From positions 99,421,501 to 99,485,500 of the forward strand of contig NC_060207.1 in assembly GCF_021130785.1 (NCBI RefSeq): a stretch of 64,000 bases of DNA, written 5' to 3'. This DNA comes from Homalodisca vitripennis. Taxonomy: Eukaryota; Arthropoda; Insecta; Hemiptera; Cicadellidae. Both the position numbers and the translations under genes were made by a program. The notes under the pieces are model-generated. The model was not told the origin of the DNA. It was given only the letters and a program-made list of their open reading frames with translations, and ran no database searches. Below, piece by piece: positions 5,741-63,984 of the stretch; the stretch's first letter is position 1, and every line of letters begins with the position of its first letter.

Positions 5741-6182
5741 GAAAAACTCGCTGACTTGTTGGGGTCGTTTGGCCTTAACTGGTCGATCACCTCTCCCCCG
5801 AGAGTTTACGACCCACTTCGGCGACTGCGATTGACAATGTCGTCACAAATTTGTCAGACACCGAAGCTTTAGTGGTCAACACAGCCATTTCAGATCACTA
5901 TGGCCAACAGGTCACAATCAATGGTCATGAACCTGCAAGGGATCCAGTCAACAAAAAAAACAATCAGAAACACAAGGCCCGCAAATATTAAGCTCTTAAA
6001 ATTTTTTTCTCGCTCAAGAAAATTGGAGCTTTCTAAATTTTGGAGGTCCCCTTGAAACACAATTCAGTAGTTTTGAATCGACCTTTAACTACCACTTAAA
6101 CGTGAGCTGTCCCCCTGATAAAAATTCAACAAAAAACGAGGCAACAAAAGTGCACATGGATCACCAAAGGTATTGATTAATC

Positions 6183-7480
6183 TCTCTTTTCACTCGGGAA
6201 CGTTTCCACCCTCTCTCGAAATTGCGAAAGTTTACCCCAATTTTTAAGAAGGGCGACCCCCTTTCAACTCAAAATTATCGCCCAATTTCAATGCTGCCGG
6301 TTTTCAAGCAGAATTTTTTGAAAAAGTTTTTTTTCACTCGATGTGTGAATTTTTTTGAAAAACACAACCTACTATCAGCAAACCAAATTCGGGTTCCGAA
6401 GTGGAAAGTCAAGTCAACAACTGACGCAATCGTTCGTCTGGTCGACATGATAGTAGAAGGAATGGAAGATCGAGGAGACACGTTGAGTGTATTCTCGGAC
6501 CTATCGAAAGCATTTGACTGTGTTGACCACCATTCCCTCATTCTCAAATTGGAACATTACGGGGTGCGAGGAGTGCCACTCAAGTGGCTCGAATCGTACC
6601 TTAGTGATAGAAAACAATTTGTTGGAATTTCAGACGTTCGATCTGAAGGGAGAGGGCTGAAGGGAGCCCTGGGGAACTCCATCCTGAGTCCTCTACTCTT
6701 TTGATCTACGTCAATGATGTTGGTTCATCGGTAAGCCGCGGACAACTCGTCCAGTATGCCGATGACACGACTCTATGCTTCAAAGCGAATTCAAAAACAG
6801 AACTCGAAGAGATTACATTCATTGAACTCAAGAATGCGATCCAGCATTTCAATGAACTCAACCTCAGAACAAACCCAACGAAATCAACATTCATTCAATT
6901 TTGCCTGAAACACACGAACTCAGGCTCTAGTCCCCACTGTCATGTTGAATGAGACTGAGATCGAAGAAGTCTACTCAACAAAATTCCTTGGAATACACCT
7001 CGATCAAGGGGTTGACATGGGATTTTCATGTAGACAGCGTTTGTTCCAAGGTATCTCAGGCATTTATGTTTTGAGGAGACTCTCCGAGTATTGCCCGACT
7101 CAGGTGCTGATAACGGCGTACTATGGACTGAATCTACCCACACCTCTCCTATGGATTGGTTTTGTGGGGGGGTTGCTCAAAAACAAATGTTTCCAGAATC
7201 TTCATACTGCAAAAAAGAGCAGTCAGAATCATTGCCAAGCTGCAAAGGAGAGAGTCGTGTAAGCCAGCATTCAAAAATCTGAAACTGTTGACACTACCCT
7301 GCCTCTACGTATTAGAGACATGCCTTTTCTTCATGTCAAAATGCGAAACCATAAGAGGTAGTAACATACACTCTTACGCAACAAGGGGCAGTGGAGAACT
7401 ACCGAACTGGGAGACACAGAACGGCAGTTCATGAACGTTTACCGTCACAGGCGGAGAGTTCAATTCGTCAACAAATTGCC
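6183..7480 (+). pseudogene. LINE reverse transcriptase, frameshifted
   Basis: The main frame (6222-6704) carries RT blocks in order: TPIFKKGDPLSTQNYRPISM, then a garbled FGFRKGKSTTDAI block, then LSVFSDLSKAFDCVDHHSL (motif A, catalytic Asp), then LSDRKQFV. The usual GVPQGS motif has decayed to GALGNS. A one-frame shift at about 6700 leads into IYVNDV and QYADDTTLCF (motif C, catalytic Asp pair at 6754-6765). A further shift leads into the connection region (TKFLGIHLD). The protein would copy element RNA at a nicked chromosomal site. With broken frames and a damaged substrate-binding motif it cannot be functional. Confidence 0.88.
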
Positions 7481-8111: not shown

Positions 8112-8325
8112 AAAACATTATTTCAACGAATGAAGTGGAAAAAGTAACAAAAATCGAGAAAGACATGTGATGAAATATGACGGAGAGATACATTTGGCAC
8201 GGTCAGTGGATATACAAAAAGTAAGTGGATCATCATCCGGAGTTCTGAAAAATCGATGTCGACTTGACAGCACGTCTCCAATGGAGATTTATCAACGGTT
8301 TTTACTTCATTGACTTTTATAATAA
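8112..8325. other. near-invariant conserved element, copy A
   Basis: Bases 8155-8282 match 46093-46220 at 127 of 128 positions; the one difference is t8264 against c46202. The flanks out to 8112 and 8325 are about 87% identical, and the DNA beyond is far more diverged. On the plus strand a short frame from an ATG at 8179 reads MKYDGEIHLARSVDIQK and continues to about 8320. On the minus strand the core is also open in two frames. The plus strand contains AAA|GTAAGT, a good splice-donor match, but conservation does not drop after it. It may be a coding exon, a structured RNA or a regulatory element; its function is unknown. Confidence 0.75.
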
Positions 8326-8904
8326 GCAATGTCATTCTACCATTTATTCCATACATAATTATTAAATAACTTTATAGTTAAACGTAACTAATTGACTATT
8401 ACTTAGCATACCGATTGTTTCCGTCATAACCTCTCTCTACGAAGGTCAAGCGATCTTTACCTGCAACATGAATATTATGGAATTCTCTTACTATGACAGT
8501 GATTTTTCAACGCATTCATGACCAAACTGACGCTATTATGAGGCATGTTCATTTGAGAATACGACTAATATTTCATACAACATCTATCTTTAATTATAAT
8601 AATTGCAAAACATGTTTTAAAGTAATATCATTAACATCGTTAATATTATTCTCTCAATCATTTTTGTCCAATAATTTTATTGCATATATGTATCAGCTTC
8701 AGCTGAAAGAATATTTTATTATATTTACTGCTAACACACATCAAGCTTGACTATTTCAGGTCTTCAATTTTTACACATTTGTATACAATGTCCTGTCAGG
8801 TTTAAGGCGATAAGCGCTTGAATATTTTAAATGGGATGAATAAAGGAAGAAAGATTTATAAAGCTTAAAAATAAATACGTATAGTATAGAATATTGTTGA
8901 ATAC

Positions 8905-10298
8905 CTTAATTATGAAAATTTGCTTCCAAAATTGCAATCAGGGTTCAGAAAGAACCACAGCACTTGCACTGCATTGCTGAATATGTTTGCAGATGTTTTT
9001 GGGTCGAGGGACGCCGGCAGGTGTAGCTCTATAATCATGCTTGATTATTCGCAGGCATTTGATTCCATAAGCCATAGTTTGCTCCTTGCGAAATTGAAGC
9101 ACTTCGGCTTCCATGAGAGTGCAATTGTCTGGTTCAAGTCTTACTTGGAAAAAAGACTGCAGGTGACGAAGCTGGGTACCGATATCTCACCTCCCCTTGA
9201 GAAATTAAGGGGAGTGCCGCAGGGGAGCTGTCTGGGGCCCATTTTGTTCACCCTTTACACTGCAGATCTGTCCAACTGTGTAAATCACTGCAAGGTGCAT
9301 GCCTATGCTGATGACTGTCAATTGCATTTTTCTTATGAGTCAGATTCCATTAACCAAGTTTTCGCAGGGGTAAACTCTGATCTGGAGAGAATAGATGATT
9401 GGTCACGGAAGCATGGTCTCAAGTTGAACGCTGAAAAATGCATGATTCTTCATATTGCCCCGCCAACTGTCTGTCAAAAAATCCTGCTTGGAGATATGCA
9501 CGTTAAACTTGGTGACAAAATGTTGATGGTGAGTGATACTGTCAAGACTTTGGGAGTGGTGCTTGACAGGGGCCTCACATTCTCAGATCACATCACTCAT
9601 GTTTCCCAGTTGGCTTTAGGAAGGCTGCGAGGTCTGTACAGGTACCGATCAATACTGCCAGAATCTGCTAAGCTGCAGCTGGTCCAGTCATTAGTTTTGT
9701 CAGTGCTCTATTACTGTTTTCCTGCATACGGCAACAGCATTACCAGGGAGGAAATGTCCCGATTGCAGAGGCTGCAGAACACCGCAGTGCGCTTCGTTTA
9801 CAACATTCGTAGACGGGAGCGTATATCTGCCTATCGTGAGGCTGCCGGTCTTTTGCCAACTGATGCCGTGTGTAGGATGCAGACTTGCAACCTCATCCAC
9901 CGGGTCTTGGTACAGCAGGAGCCTCAGTACCTGGTGGAAAGACTCGTTGCTCGTGGGGGGGTGGCTCTGCGAAGCACCCGGCAGGATGCGCTACTCCATT
10001 TTCCAAAGGTCAGACTAGAGGTGGGTAGAAAAGGGTTTTCTTATTTTGGCCCTACTCTTTATAATGACCTCCCTTGGGACCTCAAACAAATGGGCATCCT
10101 AGCATTTAAGTCTAGAGTAAAATCTCATTTTATGAATACGTCTTAATTATATATTTTTTGTTACCATTTATGTGCACCATGAAAATAATGTGTAGTTTTT
10201 AATTTTAAGTTTGACTTGAGTTACTCTGTAAAACAGTTGTACACTGAGAGACGCTTGAAATAAAGGCATTTTTATTATTTATTTATTATTATTAATAT
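8905..10298 (+). mobile_element. 5'-truncated LINE with intact 3' half of ORF2
   Basis: This block of higher G+C content starts abruptly inside the reverse transcriptase near 8905 and ends in an A+T-rich short-repeat tail (ttattatttatttattatta) at about 10298, as expected for a LINE copied incompletely from its 3' end. Copy B continues straight through the equivalent position (about 47130), so the insertion postdates the duplication. The intact frame says it is recent. No convincing target-site duplication was found. Confidence 0.88.
8920..10146 (+). CDS. non-LTR retrotransposon reverse transcriptase, C-terminal 408 aa
   Basis: The frame begins with a TTG codon only because the element is truncated; codons upstream of 8920 are still element-like, so no genuine start exists. 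Residues 6-19 (QSGFRKNHSTCTAL) are the RT fingers motif, 42-48 (DYSQAFD) motif A, 98-103 (GVPQGS) the template-binding motif, and 129-132 (YADD) the catalytic motif C. LGVVLDRGLTFSDHI near 210-225 is the following conserved block. The remaining 180 residues form the thumb/C-terminal region. The endonuclease and the first RT blocks are missing. All visible catalytic residues are intact and there are no internal stops. It belongs to the Jockey/CR1-like group and is not the same family as the 5233-7690 element. Confidence 0.92.
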   Translation: MLPKLQSGFRKNHSTCTALLNMFADVFGSRDAGRCSSIIMLDYSQAFDSISHSLLLAKLKHFGFHESAIVWFKSYLEKRLQVTKLGTDISPPLEKLRGVPQGSCLGPILFTLYTADLSNCVNHCKVHAYADDCQLHFSYESDSINQVFAGVNSDLERIDDWSRKHGLKLNAEKCMILHIAPPTVCQKILLGDMHVKLGDKMLMVSDTVKTLGVVLDRGLTFSDHITHVSQLALGRLRGLYRYRSILPESAKLQLVQSLVLSVLYYCFPAYGNSITREEMSRLQRLQNTAVRFVYNIRRRERISAYREAAGLLPTDAVCRMQTCNLIHRVLVQQEPQYLVERLVARGGVALRSTRQDALLHFPKVRLEVGRKGFSYFGPTLYNDLPWDLKQMGILAFKSRVKSHFMNTS

Positions 10299-11727: not shown

Positions 11728-11905
11728 CAAAAGTAAGAAGCCACACAAGTGTTTTACAAGATTAAATCAAATAAAATCAAACTGAAGCTAAGGAAATCGT
11801 ATAAAATGTGTTTGAACTTAAAATTTAAATAAAAAATGCATGATTTATTTCTTACAATCAGTTTTCCTTTAAATTTTTAAATAATCAAATGAGACAAATA
11901 AAACG

Positions 11906-21019: not shown

Positions 21020-21260
21020 TAAACATCTCCCTTGTTGAGAGCAGTTTGTACTGATTATGTTTTGTAACTGGGTCGTTTATATAACAGATAATTGAAATAC
21101 ATAGGGGTGTGAGACATTGATTTCTGTTCGGCTACCAGAATCCGTCTCTGTGGGCGACATGAGGACATCATCACCATCTGTCCCTTATTGCTGACATCAA
21201 TGACCATGTTTCGTAACTAGTATATTGGTATATCATACTTAATATAAAGCTGGACTACTA
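21020..21260 (+). repeat. small repeated element, degenerate tandem pair (copy A)
   Basis: A 3' remnant of one unit (21031-21075, cccttgttgagagcag … gttttgtaactgggt) is followed by a fuller unit at 21105-21225 (gagacattgatttctgttcg, ggctaccag, catcatcaccatctgtccct) and the trailing tataaagctgg. The pair corresponds to 50447-50765 in copy B. In the frame of the intact copies this unit reads DIDFCSATRIR, but its ATG has become GTG and an in-frame TGA follows. It is a decayed relative of the elements at 26040-26345 and 62990-63300. Confidence 0.7.
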
Positions 21261-21479
21261 TACGCACTATAAGTCTCTCTATGTAACGAAGTATTGTATA
21301 CTTTACACTGATATAAAATATTTTTCTCTGAAAAGAATTGATAATTTATCAAACTAACAGTTGAGTTCACCAATAATAGATCTTTTAAAAAGAATTGCTG
21401 ACCCCATAAATCAATACTGAAATAAATCTTATAGATCTTAACGTAAATTGCCTTGATAAATTTCATAACTAAAAATTGG

Positions 21480-24832: not shown

Positions 24833-26059
24833 AAACTGAAAACAGACTGCGAAAATCAGTGACCTTTACGGCTTCCTCTCGCGATTTAAAAGTGAAGCCA
24901 ATGTCGTACAATTCTGTAAGATGCGTCAAATAAAAGCTCTTAATATTGGCAATCTATTGGTTACATTTTTAAATATTAAAAAAATTTCGAAATAATTTTG
25001 ATTATTGTTTACATTTTACATAGCGTTTACAATGACAAGAAAAAAGTAGTAAGCAAGGATTTTTTTATTTTTTGGTCAGACAAAATTTGTCAGCGAGAAA
25101 GTTGTGTGAAAATAGATGAATATTTTTTTTGTAATTTATCATTTTTTTATTGGAAGTTTAGTTTAGCCTGTAGTAGCGTATGAAGTGATGAGTGAACGTT
25201 TCTGCCGGAACTGTAGTTGGCGCATTGGCTCACTGATACCGTATTAACTCAATAAAATTAGTTTATTGTGCAATAAAAAATACCTTTACGAAAGAACCAA
25301 GTTAATTTAACTAATTTATTAGTTTTAAAAATATTGTGGGTTTAATTGTTATTGCAATTATATACTTTATCCGTAGCAATAACTGTATTATTTACAACGG
25401 TGTTCAACTCACTGTTGTTCACTCGGTGTTTACTCACTTATAAATGAATATTGAAAACAACGAATATGTTTTTAAACATTTTGAATATTTGTACGAATAT
25501 TTGTATTTAAAATTTAGCATTATTCATTTTAATTATGTTTTTAATATTTAACATCTTCATCATGAAATGAGTATTATTACGGTATAAGATTTATCTTACT
25601 AGCGTGGTAAAATAGATTTCTAGTTATTTGATAATATTTTTTCGTGGATTTTAAAATTGGAAAATTAAAAAAAACGCGTCACATTTACAATTACAGATGT
25701 ACTGCTACTATAACGTATTGTTAATTACTCTCAACTTAATAGTTCCGTTTTCACTTCTATCGGCAGTCCCACGACTGCTACTGTTTTTTAATTTTAAAAA
25801 TTAAAATAAACTATAATAAAATCAGGTACGGTTTAAAGTTGAGATGGATACATTTTGGCTCTATTTACGGTTTACCTTATAATCTGTCTGATAATAGACC
25901 TATGAGACGAAAATGTGAATAGTAGAAGTATTTACGTTTATACGTTACAAAATATTTACAGTTTTTCTCTTGTTAAGTTAAAAAAAAGAAACAGCATTCA
26001 ACAAATGCTCTTAAAGCAAGTAAATATGCTCTTAGACGGTAACACATACAGCTACCAGT

Positions 26060-26115
26060 TATAAAAGTTTAAAAACGTATAAAATGTTCATGTGACAGAA
26101 TGTTTGTTTACAGTG
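26060..26115 (+). promoter_or_regulatory. possible TATA/initiator core promoter (or splice acceptor)
   Basis: TATAAAAG at 26060-26067 and TATAAAAT at 26079-26086 precede tttacagtgtc, whose A at 26112 is 33 bases from the second TATA, a normal TATA-to-initiator distance. The same arrangement is kept at 63012-63066 with few changes. The tgtttgtttacag sequence would serve equally well as a 3' splice site, so two readings compete: the start of a tiny transcript, or the boundary of an exon. Confidence 0.35.
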
Positions 26116-26160
26116 TCACAATTTGTTACGACTTCATGTCCTTTTATAAAATCCGGGGCG

Positions 26161-26271
26161 ATGAGGAAAAGCGGTCCGTTGAATTATATAACGATGCGAG
26201 AAATCGATTTGGTCTCGGCTACCAGACTCCGGGCTCTGTGGGCGACATCATCACCGTTTGTCCCTTATTGA
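26161..26271 (+). CDS. candidate 36-aa small ORF of a repeated element
   Basis: The ATG at 26161 opens a 36-codon frame with core MREIDLVSATRLRALWATSS, ending FVPY at a TGA. The copy at 63123-63233 differs at three bases. More diverged relatives (50602, 50449, 21105) keep (D/E)ID(L/F)…S(A/D)TR in this frame, and many of their differences fall on third codon positions, as expected of coding sequence. A second frame over the same DNA (26114-26282) is open in the two good copies; it starts EEKRSVELYNDARNRFG and ends CPLLRVH. It is broken in the other copies. An AATAAA-type signal follows at 26323 (agtaaa here, aataaa in copy B). The gene is unrecognised and the function unknown. Confidence 0.35.
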   Translation: MRKSGPLNYITMREIDLVSATRLRALWATSSPFVPY

Positions 26272-26667
26272 GGGTTCACTGATTAAGTTTCATAACAAAG
26301 AGACTGTTGCATAATACTCGAAGTAAAGCTGAATAGTTTTACTGTGTTATTATTTCTCGTTATCTTGCTATCTCACTGATACAGAGTATTGAAGATATTT
26401 ATAAAAGATGCACATATTTTATTTCCCAATGAATAAAATATTGAATTGTTTTATTTGCATTATTTTTATAAATTTAGTTATATTCTTCTTGTTCCTTAAT
26501 ATATAGGCTACTTTATTATAAAATACAATGCAATAGGCTAACTAATGTCTCCTTGCCTGTGCATATTACCATGCAATCTCTTCGCTCACATTTTGCCTAA
26601 ATTTTCTTTCATTGAACAATAGAATATAACAACTGGATAAAATTTATATTATATATTAAATCAACTA

Positions 26668-44018: not shown

Positions 44019-44190
44019 AACGACAGTTCACGACCCAAATTAGGGCTCTTTGTTGTGTCCTGGAGGTCAGCCAATCTCACTCTCACCCTCCTGATTCTAC
44101 AACCCGATCTAACCATCTTTCACGACTGAGCCTTACACAAGTTTAGTGCTGTTTTTTTTTCAACAGTAGTCACTTATCCCTCTCATATAA
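44019..44190 (+). other. conserved island, copy B
   Basis: Partner of 2196-2370. The shared frame ends at TAG (44144-44146) here and runs 17 codons further in copy A. It lies inside a 65-codon open frame starting at 43949, whose first half is not conserved. Confidence 0.45.
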
Positions 44191-46049: not shown

Positions 46050-46262
46050 AAAACATTATTTCCACGAATGAAGTGGAAACATTAACAAAAAGCGAGAAAG
46101 ACATGTGATGAAATATGACGGAGAGATACATTTGGCACGGTCAGTGGATATACAAAAAGTAAGTGGATCATCATCCGGAGTTCTGAAAAATCGATGTCGA
46201 CCTGACAGCACGTCTCCAATAGAGATTTTATCAACAGTTTCTACTTCACTGACTTCTATAAT
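46050..46262. other. near-invariant conserved element, copy B
   Basis: Partner of 8112-8325; see there for frames. Within 46093-46220 only c46202 differs. The next difference (a46221 against g8283) would change Met to Ile in the plus frame, and an extra t near 46228 shifts it, so the frames of the two copies diverge right after the core. Confidence 0.75.
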
Positions 46263-49189: not shown

Positions 49190-50446
49190 AATCGTTATTT
49201 AATTGTTTTCTTCTAATAATAATATAAAAATAATAGGGAATCTTGTTTGTATTTTAACATTGTAATGATACATATGCTTACTATTTTATGCTTAAATAAC
49301 AACGATAATGTTTTCACAAAGACCTCATTAATTCGCCCAGGAGGTTCAGAGCTTACTTCACCTTCTTCCGAGGGAACATAACGAGGATAGGACTAGGTGC
49401 AATTTTCTAAACATAAGTAACCAACATTAGAAATATGCAAAGTATTTTATTTTGTACGATATATTAAGATCGCTTGCTTAGTCCATGATTTCCTTGAATA
49501 CAGAAGAAGTCTTTTCTGGCTGATGAATTCATTCCAAGTTGATTAAGATCTAAGAAGGAATATCACTGACTGTTGATTATTACTTATTTGTTATCAATAT
49601 CATTATTTACTCTAAGAGTAACTTCAAGAGTACTCCAATATCCTATAAAATATCTGCATAAGAGTAATGTCTCTCTTTAACACGCAATTTTGTTTTATTT
49701 TATTTCTAACCTATCCAGAAGGGTAACTGGCAATAACCGATTATCAGTTTTGGGGATGGCGTTGATTGAAGTGTTTCTTAACATCAGAGGATTCAAGAAA
49801 CTAGGAGCTTCGCCCCCTATGAAATGATTGCTACCCCACTTTAGATCGATCGAAGTCAGTAACCTATTCTCTCAACTTCAAGTGAATGGAGATTTCTTCC
49901 TTTCTCTAGAGAGCATACTATATTTAGTCTCGTTTGTTTCATCCTTCTATATCTTTAACTTAGATCCTTATCAATATCACACATTTATACTGCATATATC
50001 CTTCTGGATAATATTAAAATCTGAAATTTATAATCATAAAGAATTACTGTCTGCTAATGGATCTATTGTTATTTTAATAATACGCTGAAGAAATAAGCCG
50101 CCTAAATATAATGGTGAGCATTTAGATAAGTGTCACGTATTATTATCCGTAGATGAATGAGTTCTATGACGAAAAATAATCTAAATCCACTTTTAATGTC
50201 AATAATATTTTATATTATGTACACATCTTAATTTTAAACAATGTCGTATAAGAAACGTGTGACGTTAGAAAAACTTTAACACAATTATTCTACACAAATT
50301 TGAGAAAGTTCTGAATTAGTTTTGAAAGCACCTAAAGGAAACCCCAAAAGTGTACAAGAGCTTTAAATTGTTATTTTTGTTCAATGTGTTATGAATTTGG
50401 TTTGCTGTTGTAAGCTATGTAGCTCCTGAAATACACTCGTATATCA
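49190..50446. other. gene-free stretch
   Basis: A+T-rich DNA. The plus frame at 49828-50088 is hydrophobic (FSQLQVNGDFFLSLESILY and onward) but has no homologue in copy A and no splice context, so it is left as uncertain. Confidence 0.45.
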
Positions 50447-50765
50447 ATGCGAGACATCGATTTAGTGTCAGATACCAGACTAGACTCTGTGAGCGACACA
50501 AACACATATTGACTATTTACCACTTATTGAGGGCAGTACTGATTACGTTTTGTAACTGGGACGTGGTATTACGCATAACAGAAAATTGGAATGCATAACG
50601 ATGCGAGACATTGATTTCGTCTCGGCTACCAGACTCCGGGTATCTGTGGGCGGTACTAGGACATCATCACCATCTGTCCCTTATTACTGTAACATCAGTG
50701 ATCATGTTTCATAACTGTTGCATGGTATATTATATGTAATGCAAAGCTGGACAACCAGACACACG
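50447..50765 (+). repeat. small repeated element, tandem pair in copy B
   Basis: Unit 1 (50447-50550) starts aatgcgagacatcgattta and ends with ttattgagggcagtactg and gttttgtaactgggac. Unit 2 (50598-50735) starts acgatgcgagacattgattt and ends catcatcaccatctgtccct, followed at 50744-50755 by tgcaaagctgga. In the 36-aa frame, unit 1 reads MRDIDLVSDTRLDSVSDTNT to a stop. Unit 2 reads MRDIDFVSATRLRVSVGGTR and stays open to TAA at about 50720. The other frame is broken in unit 2. Confidence 0.75.
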
Positions 50766-51055
50766 GACTCTCACTATACGAACTATTTGATGCTTTACAC
50801 TAATATGAAATTTTTTAACAAAGGTGGGAATTTAACTTAAAATAGTGGTTAGTTTTACCGTACTTATCCGTTAAAATGAATTGATAACCACCTTATTCAA
50901 TAGTGAACTACATAAATAAATCATAAAACAGTTATTAATATTTCTCATTCATATAAGATACTAGCAGTTAGGCGGCGTGGTTTCACACGCAACTCCGTAA
51001 GCTTGTAATTTAATATGTTCTTAGTATTATTATCAATTTTTTATTGTCTAACCCC

Positions 51056-51941: not shown

Positions 51942-54426
51942 AAAAATAAGGATGCAACCTCGGAATGAAAGATAATAAGCTACAAATTTGCATACGTCTT
52001 TATTTTGATGGTATAAAACTTACCTCAAAAAGTCTCATATAATCACGTGTACGCGATTTAAGATATTTAAGGTCAAACTTCACGAAAATCAGTCTTTTGC
52101 TAATATCTCGTTTCCCTTACGCTAAATGACTTTGAAGGTGGTTAGAGAAATTGTAGAACGAAAAATTCTCTTCAACTTTTGTCTGAAGTATTTTTATGTA
52201 CGTTCAACCCTTTTTGAGATACAGCGCAAAGAGTAGGGGACCGCTTACCTGTATATACGATAATGCGAGTTCAGCCAGAAGAATAACAATAAATAAATGA
52301 GTTATATTGTTAATTATTCACTTCATATTATTTTATTATTATTATTATTATTATTACTTAATATTATTATATTGATTATTATTATTCAATTTTTTATTAT
52401 TATTTAATATATCATATTTATAGATATTAATTATAAGTTATATATTCTCTAAATAATACTTATTTTATTTTTAACAAAACATACAATATTAAAGAAATAT
52501 ATCAAATGAATTTTAATTATATTTTTATTTATTGATAATAATCAATAATCAATTATTTGGAGGTGGATAAGACTTTGTTTCAACTACAGATGATCGAATA
52601 TCTTCTCTAATAATCGCCGCAGCAGCAGCTTCTACTATTCGTAATCGTTCTTCTTCGGGTGAGCTTTTTTTTATTCTTGTACCAAGCTTTAGATAAAATA
52701 TTTGACTCTGTGTCAAGAAAAGAAATAGTGAATGACCCAACCTTAGTTGCAATTATTATATCAGTCAAATACTTTTCCCTCAATTTACAAATGATAGTCT
52801 TATTTGCCATCTTTCAAATAACCGCCAAATGTCCGGAAAAATCCTCTTTCCTTCACAATCCTTCCATCGTCAAAAATTAACCTTCAAACAAAGGATAGTC
52901 TTATCTTCCGGTACGTACTCGGTAGGAATATCTTTCAACTCTTTTAATGTAAATTGTGAATCATTATTATTTTCTATATATAAAAAATCTCTTTCATGGC
53001 CTGTGTGATTTTATCATCTTTGTGATGCTTTTTATCAGTAGGTATTCGATTTAAAAAAACGAGAGTACAAATAGCATAATATTTAGCCTCAGCAGCTACC
53101 AAGTCATGTTCAAAAAGTATACGATTTTTCACTAAATTTTCCAACAAGTCGCCACTTTCTTCAGCTTTCGTCAAAAAACGTTATTTTTAAAATCAAGAGT
53201 GCTTACTTTACTGATGGTTCGTTAATACATTTCTTTTTTTTGTGACTTCATCAGCTACTTACCAGAAAACAAGCAAGATGTTTTAAAATCAAATACCTCT
53301 TCTCGTTTTTTTTACGAGGTGGACTTTTTTTTACGAGGTTAGAGTTTCATCGTCTTCTGCACGTCGCTTTGACGCAGCAATTGAATTTGTACTTATATAC
53401 ACTTTCAGACAATCAAACATGCACCTTCACAGAAGTCAAATTATTTAAATAATTTATATGACCGTCATTTCTGTCAATACTTGCAGTTTTTAATGTTTGT
53501 AAGCCACGAACAACACTCACAGACGCACTTTCTGATATTAATGTAATACAAATAAAACAACAATCAGCCATTTCAATTAAAAGATACACTCAAAATCGTA
53601 CGTCTGTTAATGCTAAGATGTCGTTTTCAACTAACGGATAAAATACATTTTTATCGGTATAGAAATACTAACACAGATAAATACCCTACCATTCCCATCA
53701 CCAAGTAAACTATCTCATCACCACTACTGTATTTATACATAGAAATTCCAAACTCATTCGTTTACGGTGTGTAGAAAGTAAAAAAACCGTTTCATATATA
53801 ACAAATGGAGCATCTGCTACAGAGATTTGTATTTCGAGATATAATATTCATAGTAATATAGTAATATGGACGAAGAGTATTTTTTTTTAATATTTGGTAA
53901 AAATAAAAATAAGTATTATTTTATAGAATATAAAATGTATAATAAATATCTATAAAATATGGTATATTTAAATAATAATAACAATTGAATAATAACAATA
54001 ACAATAATATAATATTAAGTAATAATAATAATAATAATAATATGAAGTGAATAATTAACAATATAACTCATTTATTTATTGTATTCTTCTGGCTGAACTC
54101 GCATTATCGTATATACAGGTAAGCGGTCCCCTACTCTTTGCGCTGTATCTCAAAAAGGGTTGAAACGTACATAAAAATACTTCAGACAAAAGTTGAAGAG
54201 AATTTTTCGTTCTACAATTTCTCTAACCACCTTCAAAGTCATTTAGCGTAAAGGAAACGAGATATTAGCAAAAGACTGATTTTCGTGAAGTTTGACCTTA
54301 AATATCTTAAATCGCGTACACGTGATTATATGAGACTTTTGAGGTTAAGTTTTATACCATCAAAATAAAGACGTATGCAAATTTGTAGCTTATTATCTTT
54401 CATTCCGAGGTTGCATCCTTATTTTT
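51942..54426 (-). mobile_element. 2.5-kb fold-back element with about 540-bp inverted arms
   Basis: Bases 51942-52495 and 53885-54426 are inverted copies of each other. The outer 390 bp or so look about 97% identical; the inner part is (TTA)n-rich and looser. The ends read aaaaataaggatgcaacctc and its complement. The interior holds a decayed protein on the minus strand. Copy A lacks the whole block between its islands 'e' and 'g', so this is a copy-B insertion. Long inverted arms with unrelated interior suggest a DNA transposon. No target duplication is obvious and the superfamily is not determined. Confidence 0.88.
52552..53390 (-). pseudogene. decayed protein inside fold-back element
   Basis: Reading the minus strand from about 53390, shifting frames give KRRAEDDETLTS, then a short FDFKTSCLF patch near 53280 and VADEVTKKRN near 53250. 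The open part at 53174-52974 follows (AEESGDLLENLVKNRILFEH, DLVAAEAKYYAICTLVFLNR, KITQAMKEIFYI). Last come KYLTDIIIATKVGSFTISF and EERLRIVEAAAAAIIREDIR near the end. From memory, a Cys-containing patch followed by DLVAAEAxYH and a Cys is typical of a poorly characterised protein family common in arthropod genomes and often near mobile DNA. I could not check this. Several frameshifts make this copy non-functional. Confidence 0.6.
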
Positions 54427-61930: not shown

Positions 61931-62989
61931 GCATTACCATTAATTCGTTGCGCGCACAGGACGGATTTCTTAAAATATCTCATTTATTATAGTTCAGATA
62001 AATATTTGGCCTCATAACTAAATACTGCACCATAGTCAATCCTCATTATAATTGAATTTACATTTACAATTTTTATAACAGTAACTTTTAACTATTTAAT
62101 TTATTTGTCAATATCAACTTGATTTTATGAAATGTGTTTAAATGCAAATAAAACTTTCTAATTCAAAACAAAATTATATTTATCATAACATGTTTGTGAC
62201 GACACACATTTGTATGAAAGACATGGTATACGAATTACAAGGTTGTTAGTTTCAACAATTAATTTCTTAAAATAATACGATTTCTATTGCCGTGATATAA
62301 ATGTATGCTGCAATAAATTATATCAATAGATGTAATAACACGTATTCTCATAAAATGTTCTGCCAATGGCAGTATAAACTTACAAATGCGATTGAAAATG
62401 TTAATGTGCTGACCTTCAAATATCAACCACAATATGATATTTTTATCAAACTAAACCAAGGAATAGTTGCTTATCAATATATTAACCGATACTAGCTTAG
62501 TTTACCTTATAGCTAGAAACACTATTCCATACTTGAAAATAAAAATGATGTAGTATTAGTAATGATTATAATGATATACAAAATATTATTTTAACTATGT
62601 TAGTATAATGTCATGTAAATACTCCGATCGTATTAGCTAATATTATTATCAGCTCAAATTAAAGTTTGGGGTTATGTCCATTGAGTTATTTTATAAGTTA
62701 TTGCTAAACATTTATTTAAAAAATTTAAATTAATGATATTTTATTCAGGTACGGTATACAGTTGGAATGGATACATTATGGCTGTATTTATTGTTTACCT
62801 TGATTATCTGTCTGATGATGGTCAATGTATGAGACGAAAATATGTATAATAAATAAATTAAGAGCTACAGACTATAAATTAGTCCTGATATAATTATGTT
62901 AACTTTACGTTTAAAGTTGTTTACAGCTTTTGTCTTCTTGAATTAATAAAAGAAACAGCAATCAACAAACAGAGGATATGCTTTTAGAC

Positions 62990-63300
62990 GTTAACACATA
63001 CAGCTTCTAGTTATAAAAGTTGAAAAACGTATAAAACGTTCGTGTGACAGAATGTTTGTTTACAGTGTCACAATGTGTTAAGATTTCATGTCATTTTCTA
63101 AAATCCGAGGCTTTCAAAAGCGATGAGGAAAAACGGTCCGTTGAATTATATAACGATGCGAGAAATCGATTTGGTCTCGGCTACCAGACTCCGGGCTCTG
63201 CGGGCGACATCATCACCATTTGTCCCTTATTGAGGGTTCATTGATTAAGTTTCATAACAGAGAGATTGTTGTATAATATGCGAAATAAAGCTGAATAGTT
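62990..63300 (+). repeat. small repeated element, well-preserved copy in B
   Basis: Counterpart of 26040-26345, with TATAAAAG at 63012-63019, a second TATAAAAC at 63030-63037, tttacagtgtc with A at 63064, two overlapping short frames, and an exact AATAAA at 63284 in gcgaaataaagctg. The upstream frame is continuous here from 63044 to 63244. Confidence 0.8.
63123..63233 (+). CDS. candidate 36-aa small ORF, copy B
   Basis: This is the same frame as 26161-26271, reading MRKNGPLNYITMREIDLVSA and ending SSPFVPY. It differs at AGC/AAC, TGG/CGG and CCG/CCA. The overlapping longer frame (63044-63244, 66 codons, ending CPLLRVH) has a continuous reading from an upstream ATG and a dibasic KR before SVELYN. 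Two of its four differences from copy A are synonymous. The data do not settle which frame, if either, is translated. Confidence 0.35.
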   Translation: MRKNGPLNYITMREIDLVSATRLRALRATSSPFVPY

Positions 63301-63984
63301 TGACTGTCTGATTAAATCTTTTTATCTCTGATAAAGTATTGAATATATATTTCTAAATCGATGCAGAGATTTTATTTGCTAAATAATCTCACACGTTACC
63401 TTAATAATCCTTTTATTTTTACCTGACCTTGTACTGATTTTTTTATCTGTGTTTTTTTTTTTTAATTTAGTTTTATTCTTCTCGTTAATTCTTTCTCTTA
63501 AAATATAACTGTAGAAACCTAAATCCTTAATTGTTATCTAAATTGGATTATCTAAGGGAATTATAGCTTACTTTCCAAATTTTTCATATAGCTGACTAAA
63601 ACTACTATGTCCAGTTCTAATAGGTCAAACAAGACTTTAACATATCTATTAAACAAAATAATAGATATACAAATATAACAACAACATTAAAAATTTATTG
63701 TTAATTCATAAGATTAATACAATAAATTATGATTATTATTATATTAATTTTCATTTGCATCACAATGTATTAGTTGCCAACATTAATCTAAAATAAAATT
63801 TGATATAAGTCCAGTCCCATTTGTACCAATACAGACAATAGCCTAACCATATTTTGGTATCTCTTTACCTGTGCACATTACCATCTTTTCGCACAAACTT
63901 TCCATTGATTTTTTTTTCATTGAAGAATACAATACAACAACTGGACAAATTTGGATTATATATTATTAAATTCTGTATTGTATA

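Follow-up and report, generated by a model that had tools for sequence, protein, structure and literature searches.

Two copies of a short sequence, islands C1 and C2, stand at corresponding positions in the two halves of an old tandem segmental duplication and are far better preserved than the DNA around them. Judged from their sequence, we read them as a paralogous conserved noncoding element that is most likely cis-regulatory (an enhancer or other protein-binding module), and we give this reading a probability slightly under one half. A preliminary description had proposed tiny genes or a short mobile repeat; a duplicated gene-control element would fit somewhat better than a tiny gene. The window, by which we mean the whole 64,000-nucleotide stretch of DNA analyzed, contains the following features. 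The blastn E values are those obtained with C1 as the query against the window.

389-26658, + strand: segmental duplication unit 1, made up of collinear blocks, with LINE pieces inside
43157-63965, + strand: segmental duplication unit 2, made up of collinear blocks, with a stretch with long inverted arms inside
26023-26339, no strand assigned: island C1 in unit 1, delimited with 60-column windows (core 26160-26282, identical run 26172-26238)
62992-63307, no strand assigned: island C2 in unit 2, collinear with C1 (10 extra bases near 63110-63119)
8113-8262, no strand assigned: island D1, a second constrained element (4/150 differences, identical run 8155-8263)
46051-46200, no strand assigned: island D2, the partner of D1 (identical run 46093-46201)
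26179-26338, + strand: 155-bp-class unit, copy C1 (profile member)
63141-63300, + strand: 155-bp-class unit, copy C2 (blastn E 4e-102; bounds set by the nhmmer profile)
50433-50594, + strand: older tandem unit A2 (blastn E 2e-11; direct repeat with B2, spacing 154)
50586-50756, + strand: older tandem unit B2 (blastn E 4e-22; frame of the 36-codon ORF open from the ATG at 50601, 37 codons)
21026-21096, + strand: A1 remnant (nhmmer E 4.5e-5)
21092-21259, + strand: older unit B1, the collinear partner of B2 (blastn E 6e-15; 21031-21324 aligned to 50523-50816)

The window holds five copies of a unit of about 155 bp and one remnant. The two well-preserved copies were found where the preliminary description had put them, at 26040-26345 and 62992-63307, with 285 of 316 alignment columns identical and 10 gap columns. 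Its diverged tandem relatives were also recovered, as A2 with B2 and as the A1 remnant with B1. The sequence of A1 lay outside the profile used to find it, while the nhmmer E values of the other five copies (1e-41 to 2e-49) all belong to sequences from which the profile was built. Pairwise distances were 0.06 for C1 and C2, 0.18 for B1 and B2, 0.24-0.28 between B and C, and 0.32-0.37 between A2 and the others, and an 8-base indel between two conserved blocks distinguishes A and B from C. The best reading of these relationships is that C grew from the older 155-bp unit.

Comparison of the window with itself confirmed that the repeat family is embedded in a segmental duplication. Blocks of unit 1 match blocks of unit 2 on the same strand, and block order was preserved in the 15 alignment rows used for the divergence count; one further row (19653 versus 61848) was out of order. 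Because C1 and C2 stand at matching places in this old tandem duplication, they did not arise as separate insertions. The series A, B, and C is probably older than the duplication, since both C1/C2 and B1/B2 hold matching places and the pairwise distances agree. Unit 1 also contains two LINE reverse transcriptase pieces (RVT_1) at 6177-6701 and 8890-10143, for which self-comparison showed no partner. Unit 2 contains a DNA transposon-like stretch at 51942-54426; its long inverted arms include 274 nt that are 97% complementary, along with further arms, and self-comparison at E 1e-10 matched it to nothing in unit 1.

When islands C and D were left out, 1080 of 4406 columns differed across the 15 alignable blocks, a rate of 0.245. 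This count used 15 of 21 alignment rows and excluded the cross-unit rows (21092-63141, 26187-50440, and 26188-50595), the out-of-order row (19653-61848), and the short rows (11801-11836 and 26445-26493). In contrast, only 4 of 123 columns differed in the core of C (26160-26282; binomial P 1e-10 at 0.245), which bears out the unusually good preservation first described, and 4 of 150 differed in island D (P 1e-13); for both islands, constraint is read from paralogues within one sequence. Across the whole of C (26040-26345), 22 of 306 columns differed (21 by another aligner), distributed as 11/120 in the 5' part, 4/123 in the core, and 7/63 in the 3' part. The immediate 5' flank of C was less diverged than the blocks at large, with 46 substitutions among 238 aligned columns (0.193; the columns were counted by hand), and at this flank rate the P values for the cores were 1e-7 for C and 8e-10 for D. 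Paralogous copies that are more conserved than their surroundings, which is what characterizes a duplicated conserved noncoding element (CNE), were thus seen at both 0.245 and 0.193. The longest identical runs were 109 bp in D and 67 bp in C. No further copy of D was found in the window by nhmmer at E <= 10. Kinship of the repeat units with D2 on either strand was considered and rejected; none of ten comparisons beat simulation, and in the best of them (C2 on the + strand) 31 of 500 simulations were as good.

The alternative that survives best is a small gene with C as one of its exons. Its product would be that of the 36-codon ORF, a noncoding RNA, or, from another frame, a precursor resembling those of secreted peptides; we regard such a gene as less likely than the regulatory reading. 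Splicing would perhaps join C to D or to an exon at 62767-62826 that resembles a signal peptide, the TATA stretch would be a promoter or an intron, and the ACAGTG would be a start site or a splice acceptor. Three features bear on it.

26161-26271 (partner 63123-63233), + strand: 36-codon ORF, from the ORF listing and frame tests
26136-26282, + strand: overlapping 48-codon ORF in another frame, ending ...DEEKRSVELYNDARNRFGLGYQTPGSVGDIITVCPLLRVH, from the ORF listing, tblastn, and the synonymous test
26060-26115, + strand: TATA boxes (26060, 26078) and ACAGTG, read from the sequence

The 36-codon ATG ORF is present in both C1 and C2 as first described. ATG ORFs at least 36 codons long number 82 on the + strand of the window and 63 on the - strand. 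Of the five copies, three (C1, C2, and B2) have the frame uninterrupted and two (A2 and B1) have it broken; counted from an inner ATG (26194 in C1), it extends for 37 codons in B2 and 21 in A2, and the second codon in B1 is a stop. In B2 the frame stays open despite a net 9-base insertion, within a stop-free run of 52 codons, and tblastn aligned the ORF to B2 with 63.6% over 33 columns (E 3e-7), both of which favor a small gene. However, between C1 and C2 only 1 of about 30 synonymous sites changed (P 0.0023 at 0.245 and 0.013 at 0.193), synonymous changes being as scarce as other changes. Nor did comparison of C with B2 reveal a synonymous excess, whether for C2 (4 synonymous and 11 nonsynonymous changes, chance-like, P 0.60) or for C1 (P 0.33). 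Of the proposal of tiny genes, then, the open frame in B2 and its tblastn match stand, whereas the synonymous deficit between C1 and C2, the lack of an excess between C2 and B2, and the lack of codon periodicity count against it. The 36-codon frame may be kept, with no protein constraint evident.

The deficit of synonymous changes was not particular to one frame. At 0.245, synonymous changes were below expectation in all six frames of the C core (P 0.0018-0.019) and all six of the D core (P 0.0001-0.013). At 0.193, the deficit had P < 0.05 in 10 of 12 frames, namely 6/6 for D and 4/6 for C; the two C frames above 0.05 were the + frame ending ...CPLLRVH (P 0.062) and one - frame (P 0.072). Columns that vary among the five copies numbered 12, 13, and 15 of 32 each at the codon positions, without codon periodicity. 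When six copy pairs were tested in six frames, 1 of 36 tests gave a synonymous excess at P < 0.05, and that was B2 with B1 in a minus frame interrupted by 3 stops (P 0.005). Weak protein constraint could escape these copy-pair tests because the changes are few (14 to 33 each). Within 26114-26282, C1 and C2 differ by 9 substitutions, 6 of which share a codon position in the ...CPLLRVH + frame; this skew, with P 0.042 for one frame and about 0.13 for three, counts against the noncoding reading.

A peptide gene nevertheless stays a rival because another frame of C yields a more protein-like product. The frame ending DEEKR-SVELYNDARNRFGLGYQTPGS[VA]GDIIT[VI]CPLLRVH is open through the core in C1 and C2, its four core changes divide evenly into synonymous and nonsynonymous ones, and a dibasic site (EEKR) is present in both copies. 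In C2, the frame of the 48-codon ORF is open over 63035-63241 and has no ATG. By eye, C2 also has an upstream frame, ATG..MDTLWLYLLFTLIICLMMVN, followed by GTATGAG, and a conserved GTAAGT lies within D; both would suit a spliced small gene. Against this, the signal-like frame of C1 is broken and its GTATGAG absent, the peptide frame of C2 contains no ATG and has a 10-base difference just upstream, and the splice phases are mismatched by eye. The peptide frame has stops in B1 and B2, although none in A2, its synonymous deficit gave P 0.015 at 0.245 and 0.062 at 0.193, and conservation in D extends beyond the GTAAGT. In the 5' flank of C2, the stretch 62767-62832 contains a short frame that begins with ATG, is hydrophobic (MDTLWLYLLFTLIICLMMVNV), and ends at GTATGAG; the frame is broken at the matching place of C1.

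Database searches also count against a small gene. In a large protein collection, no candidate shared three 5-residue words with the 79-aa inferred precursor, with the 62-codon open frame around the 36-codon ORF, or with the + frame of D (52 aa). Searches of Pfam and PDB with candidate peptides returned nothing for the element; RVT_1 was found in the two LINE pieces. Peptide strings of the element had no literature match. No match was obtained among phages searched with C1 DNA, plasmids searched with one 60-aa frame, or bacterial and archaeal genomes searched with a 22-base pattern. A 20-base exact match to a viral contig was taken as chance because that DNA is 66% GC and the local alignment spans just 35 bases; a second pattern gave none. 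A structured noncoding RNA, as recognized by a fold more stable than shuffles or by a known family, found no support either: eight RNA folds were no better than shuffles (z -0.44 to 1.67), and Rfam had no match in the window at the gathering score, the five sub-threshold hits in 62700-63450 having a best E of 0.5.

The promoter-like sequences of the preliminary description are present in C. TATAAAA occurs twice in C1 (26060-26066 and 26078-26084) and ACAGTG once (26110-26115), each with an equivalent in C2, and the adenine of the CAGT in ACAGTG lies 34 bases past the first T of the second TATA. TATAAAA occurs 55 times on the + strand of the window and 45 times on the - strand. It is followed by ACAGTG 27-42 bases on at three + strand sites and no - strand site, whereas simulated sequences averaged 0.14 such sites per strand. 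Those observed are at 26078 (C1), 63030 (C2), and 36095, and two of them represent one ancestral site because they are C1 and C2. The layout is not kept across the family, and the stretch falls outside the repeated unit. Sequence upstream of A2 had no similarity to the promoter-like stretch (177 and 180 of 300 simulated sequences scored as well), and neither did sequence upstream of B2, which is A2 itself (287 and 300 of 300 simulations as good); that upstream of B1 had weak similarity (9 and 13 of 300). The claimed poly(A)-like signal held for C2, in which an AATAAA downstream (63284) would also suit a small gene, but C1 has AGTAAA (26322).

In the available part of one source, the Drosophila initiator (Inr) is given as TYAGTY or TCAGTY, and TATAAAA was set 31 bp upstream of the transcription start site in a construct (PMC6483594). 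Like TATA/Inr core promoters, C has TATAAAA and a CAGT core. Measured against that portion of the source, its ACAGTG fits TCAGTY at 4 of 6 positions and its TATA-CAGT spacing is about 3 bases longer than the 31-bp placement (PMC6483594); unlike a shared promoter, the layout was undetected at A2 and weak at B1. By eye, the ACAGTG could equally be a splice acceptor (TTTACAG/TG).

A mixed explanation would make C an exon of a hitherto undescribed family of animal small proteins or peptide precursors (the MREIDLVSATRLR frame, or the dibasic EEKR plus SVELYNDARNRFGLGYQTPG... frame) that is also under constraint at the DNA level, an exon and a regulatory element in one, spread by tandem copying and then by segmental duplication. 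We consider this improbable.

Tandem paralogues can undergo gene conversion, and recent conversion between the halves of the duplication might have homogenized C and D, so that their identity would not come from selection. The long identical runs in D (109 bp) and C (67 bp) would suit such an event. However, the difference between C1 and C2 declines towards the core from both sides (11/120 to 4/123, and 7/63 to 4/123), and the differences coincide with columns that are variable in B1 and B2. C1 and C2 differed at 3 of 134 columns where B1 and B2 are the same versus 5 of 26 elsewhere (p 0.003); with CpG columns removed, the counts were 1 of 109 versus 5 of 21 (p 0.0004). Similarly, B1 and B2 differed at 11 of 100 columns conserved in A2 and C versus 13 of 54 others (p 0.039), or 8 of 88 versus 11 of 37 without CpG columns (p 0.006). 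No effect was seen when differences between C1 and C2 were compared with columns at which A2 and B2 agree (4/97 versus 4/57, p 0.47). All of these column tests involve small counts and related sequences, and CpG is the only mutation-rate difference controlled. Conversion alone predicts that differences between C1 and C2 are indifferent to variation between B1 and B2; the dependence observed therefore favors selection. The pattern in these copies thus argues for selection rather than conversion, and we doubt that conversion accounts for the islands.

It is equally doubtful that C is the relic of a dispersed repeat, mobile or satellite, retained by chance: there are five copies and a remnant, two of them in tandem, but the copies take up collinear positions in the duplication, no tRNA was predicted by ARAGORN run with the bacterial code, and chance retention leaves the constraint unexplained. 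SINEs and MITEs typically carry terminal repeats and insertion (target-site) duplications. With these the C units have in common a short repeated unit; however, a search of the units for terminal inverted repeats and for direct repeats in their flanks, with a minimum length of 10 bases, found none, the flank check proposed earlier for target duplications gave none of that length, and the copies are explained by the duplication. The suggestion of a short mobile repeat is accordingly unsupported within the window, the flanks of C1 and C2 being shared through the duplication. One 10-nt inverted pair each was seen in the C1, C2, and B1 stretches, away from the unit ends and at non-matching places.

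On the reading that we favor, C would be an ordinary kind of element in an informative setting. In vertebrates, the accessible part of one report describes duplicated CNEs (dCNEs) that flank developmental paralogues, with overlaps between co-orthologous CNEs of 24-460 bp (mean 107.5; PMC1896008). As in that portion of the report, a short noncoding sequence is kept here beside duplicated loci; unlike there, the setting is one tandem segmental duplication in an invertebrate, and the element is known from paralogues alone (PMC1896008). Worm CNEs (wCNEs), according to the part of the source at hand, average 69 bp and 96% identity, were identified by comparing species, and are located close to developmental genes (PMC1852409). 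The cores of D and C are in the same range of size and identity as given there, but C and D were compared between paralogues only (PMC1852409). Among the matches listed in the literature, as judged from titles and abstract starts, none was an invertebrate case of such an arrangement.

Should C and D be duplicated regulatory elements, constraint would act on the DNA itself, through closely packed binding sites with some freedom of spacing, as the 8-base indel between A/B and C suggests, and the target of each island would be a gene copy close by, which probably lies beyond the window. A six-frame Pfam search with stops as X, covering 12-27, 27-42, 42-49, and 58-64 kb, gave no family at E <= 0.01, and the lack of a cellular gene in the stretches covered counts against the regulatory reading. 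If the reading is right, this single old duplication lends itself to testing how regulatory DNA persists once it has been duplicated: islands C and D have hardly changed, whereas the remaining alignable sequence has drifted by about one quarter. The A, B, and C units would likewise form a natural series of decaying and retained copies that shows which bases matter.

Two minor observations concern the rest of the window. Weaker conserved islands of the duplication lie at 2235-2340 (partner at about 44060-44167) and at 450-513. At 1109-1371, a 131-bp unit is present in two copies as a perfect tandem duplication.
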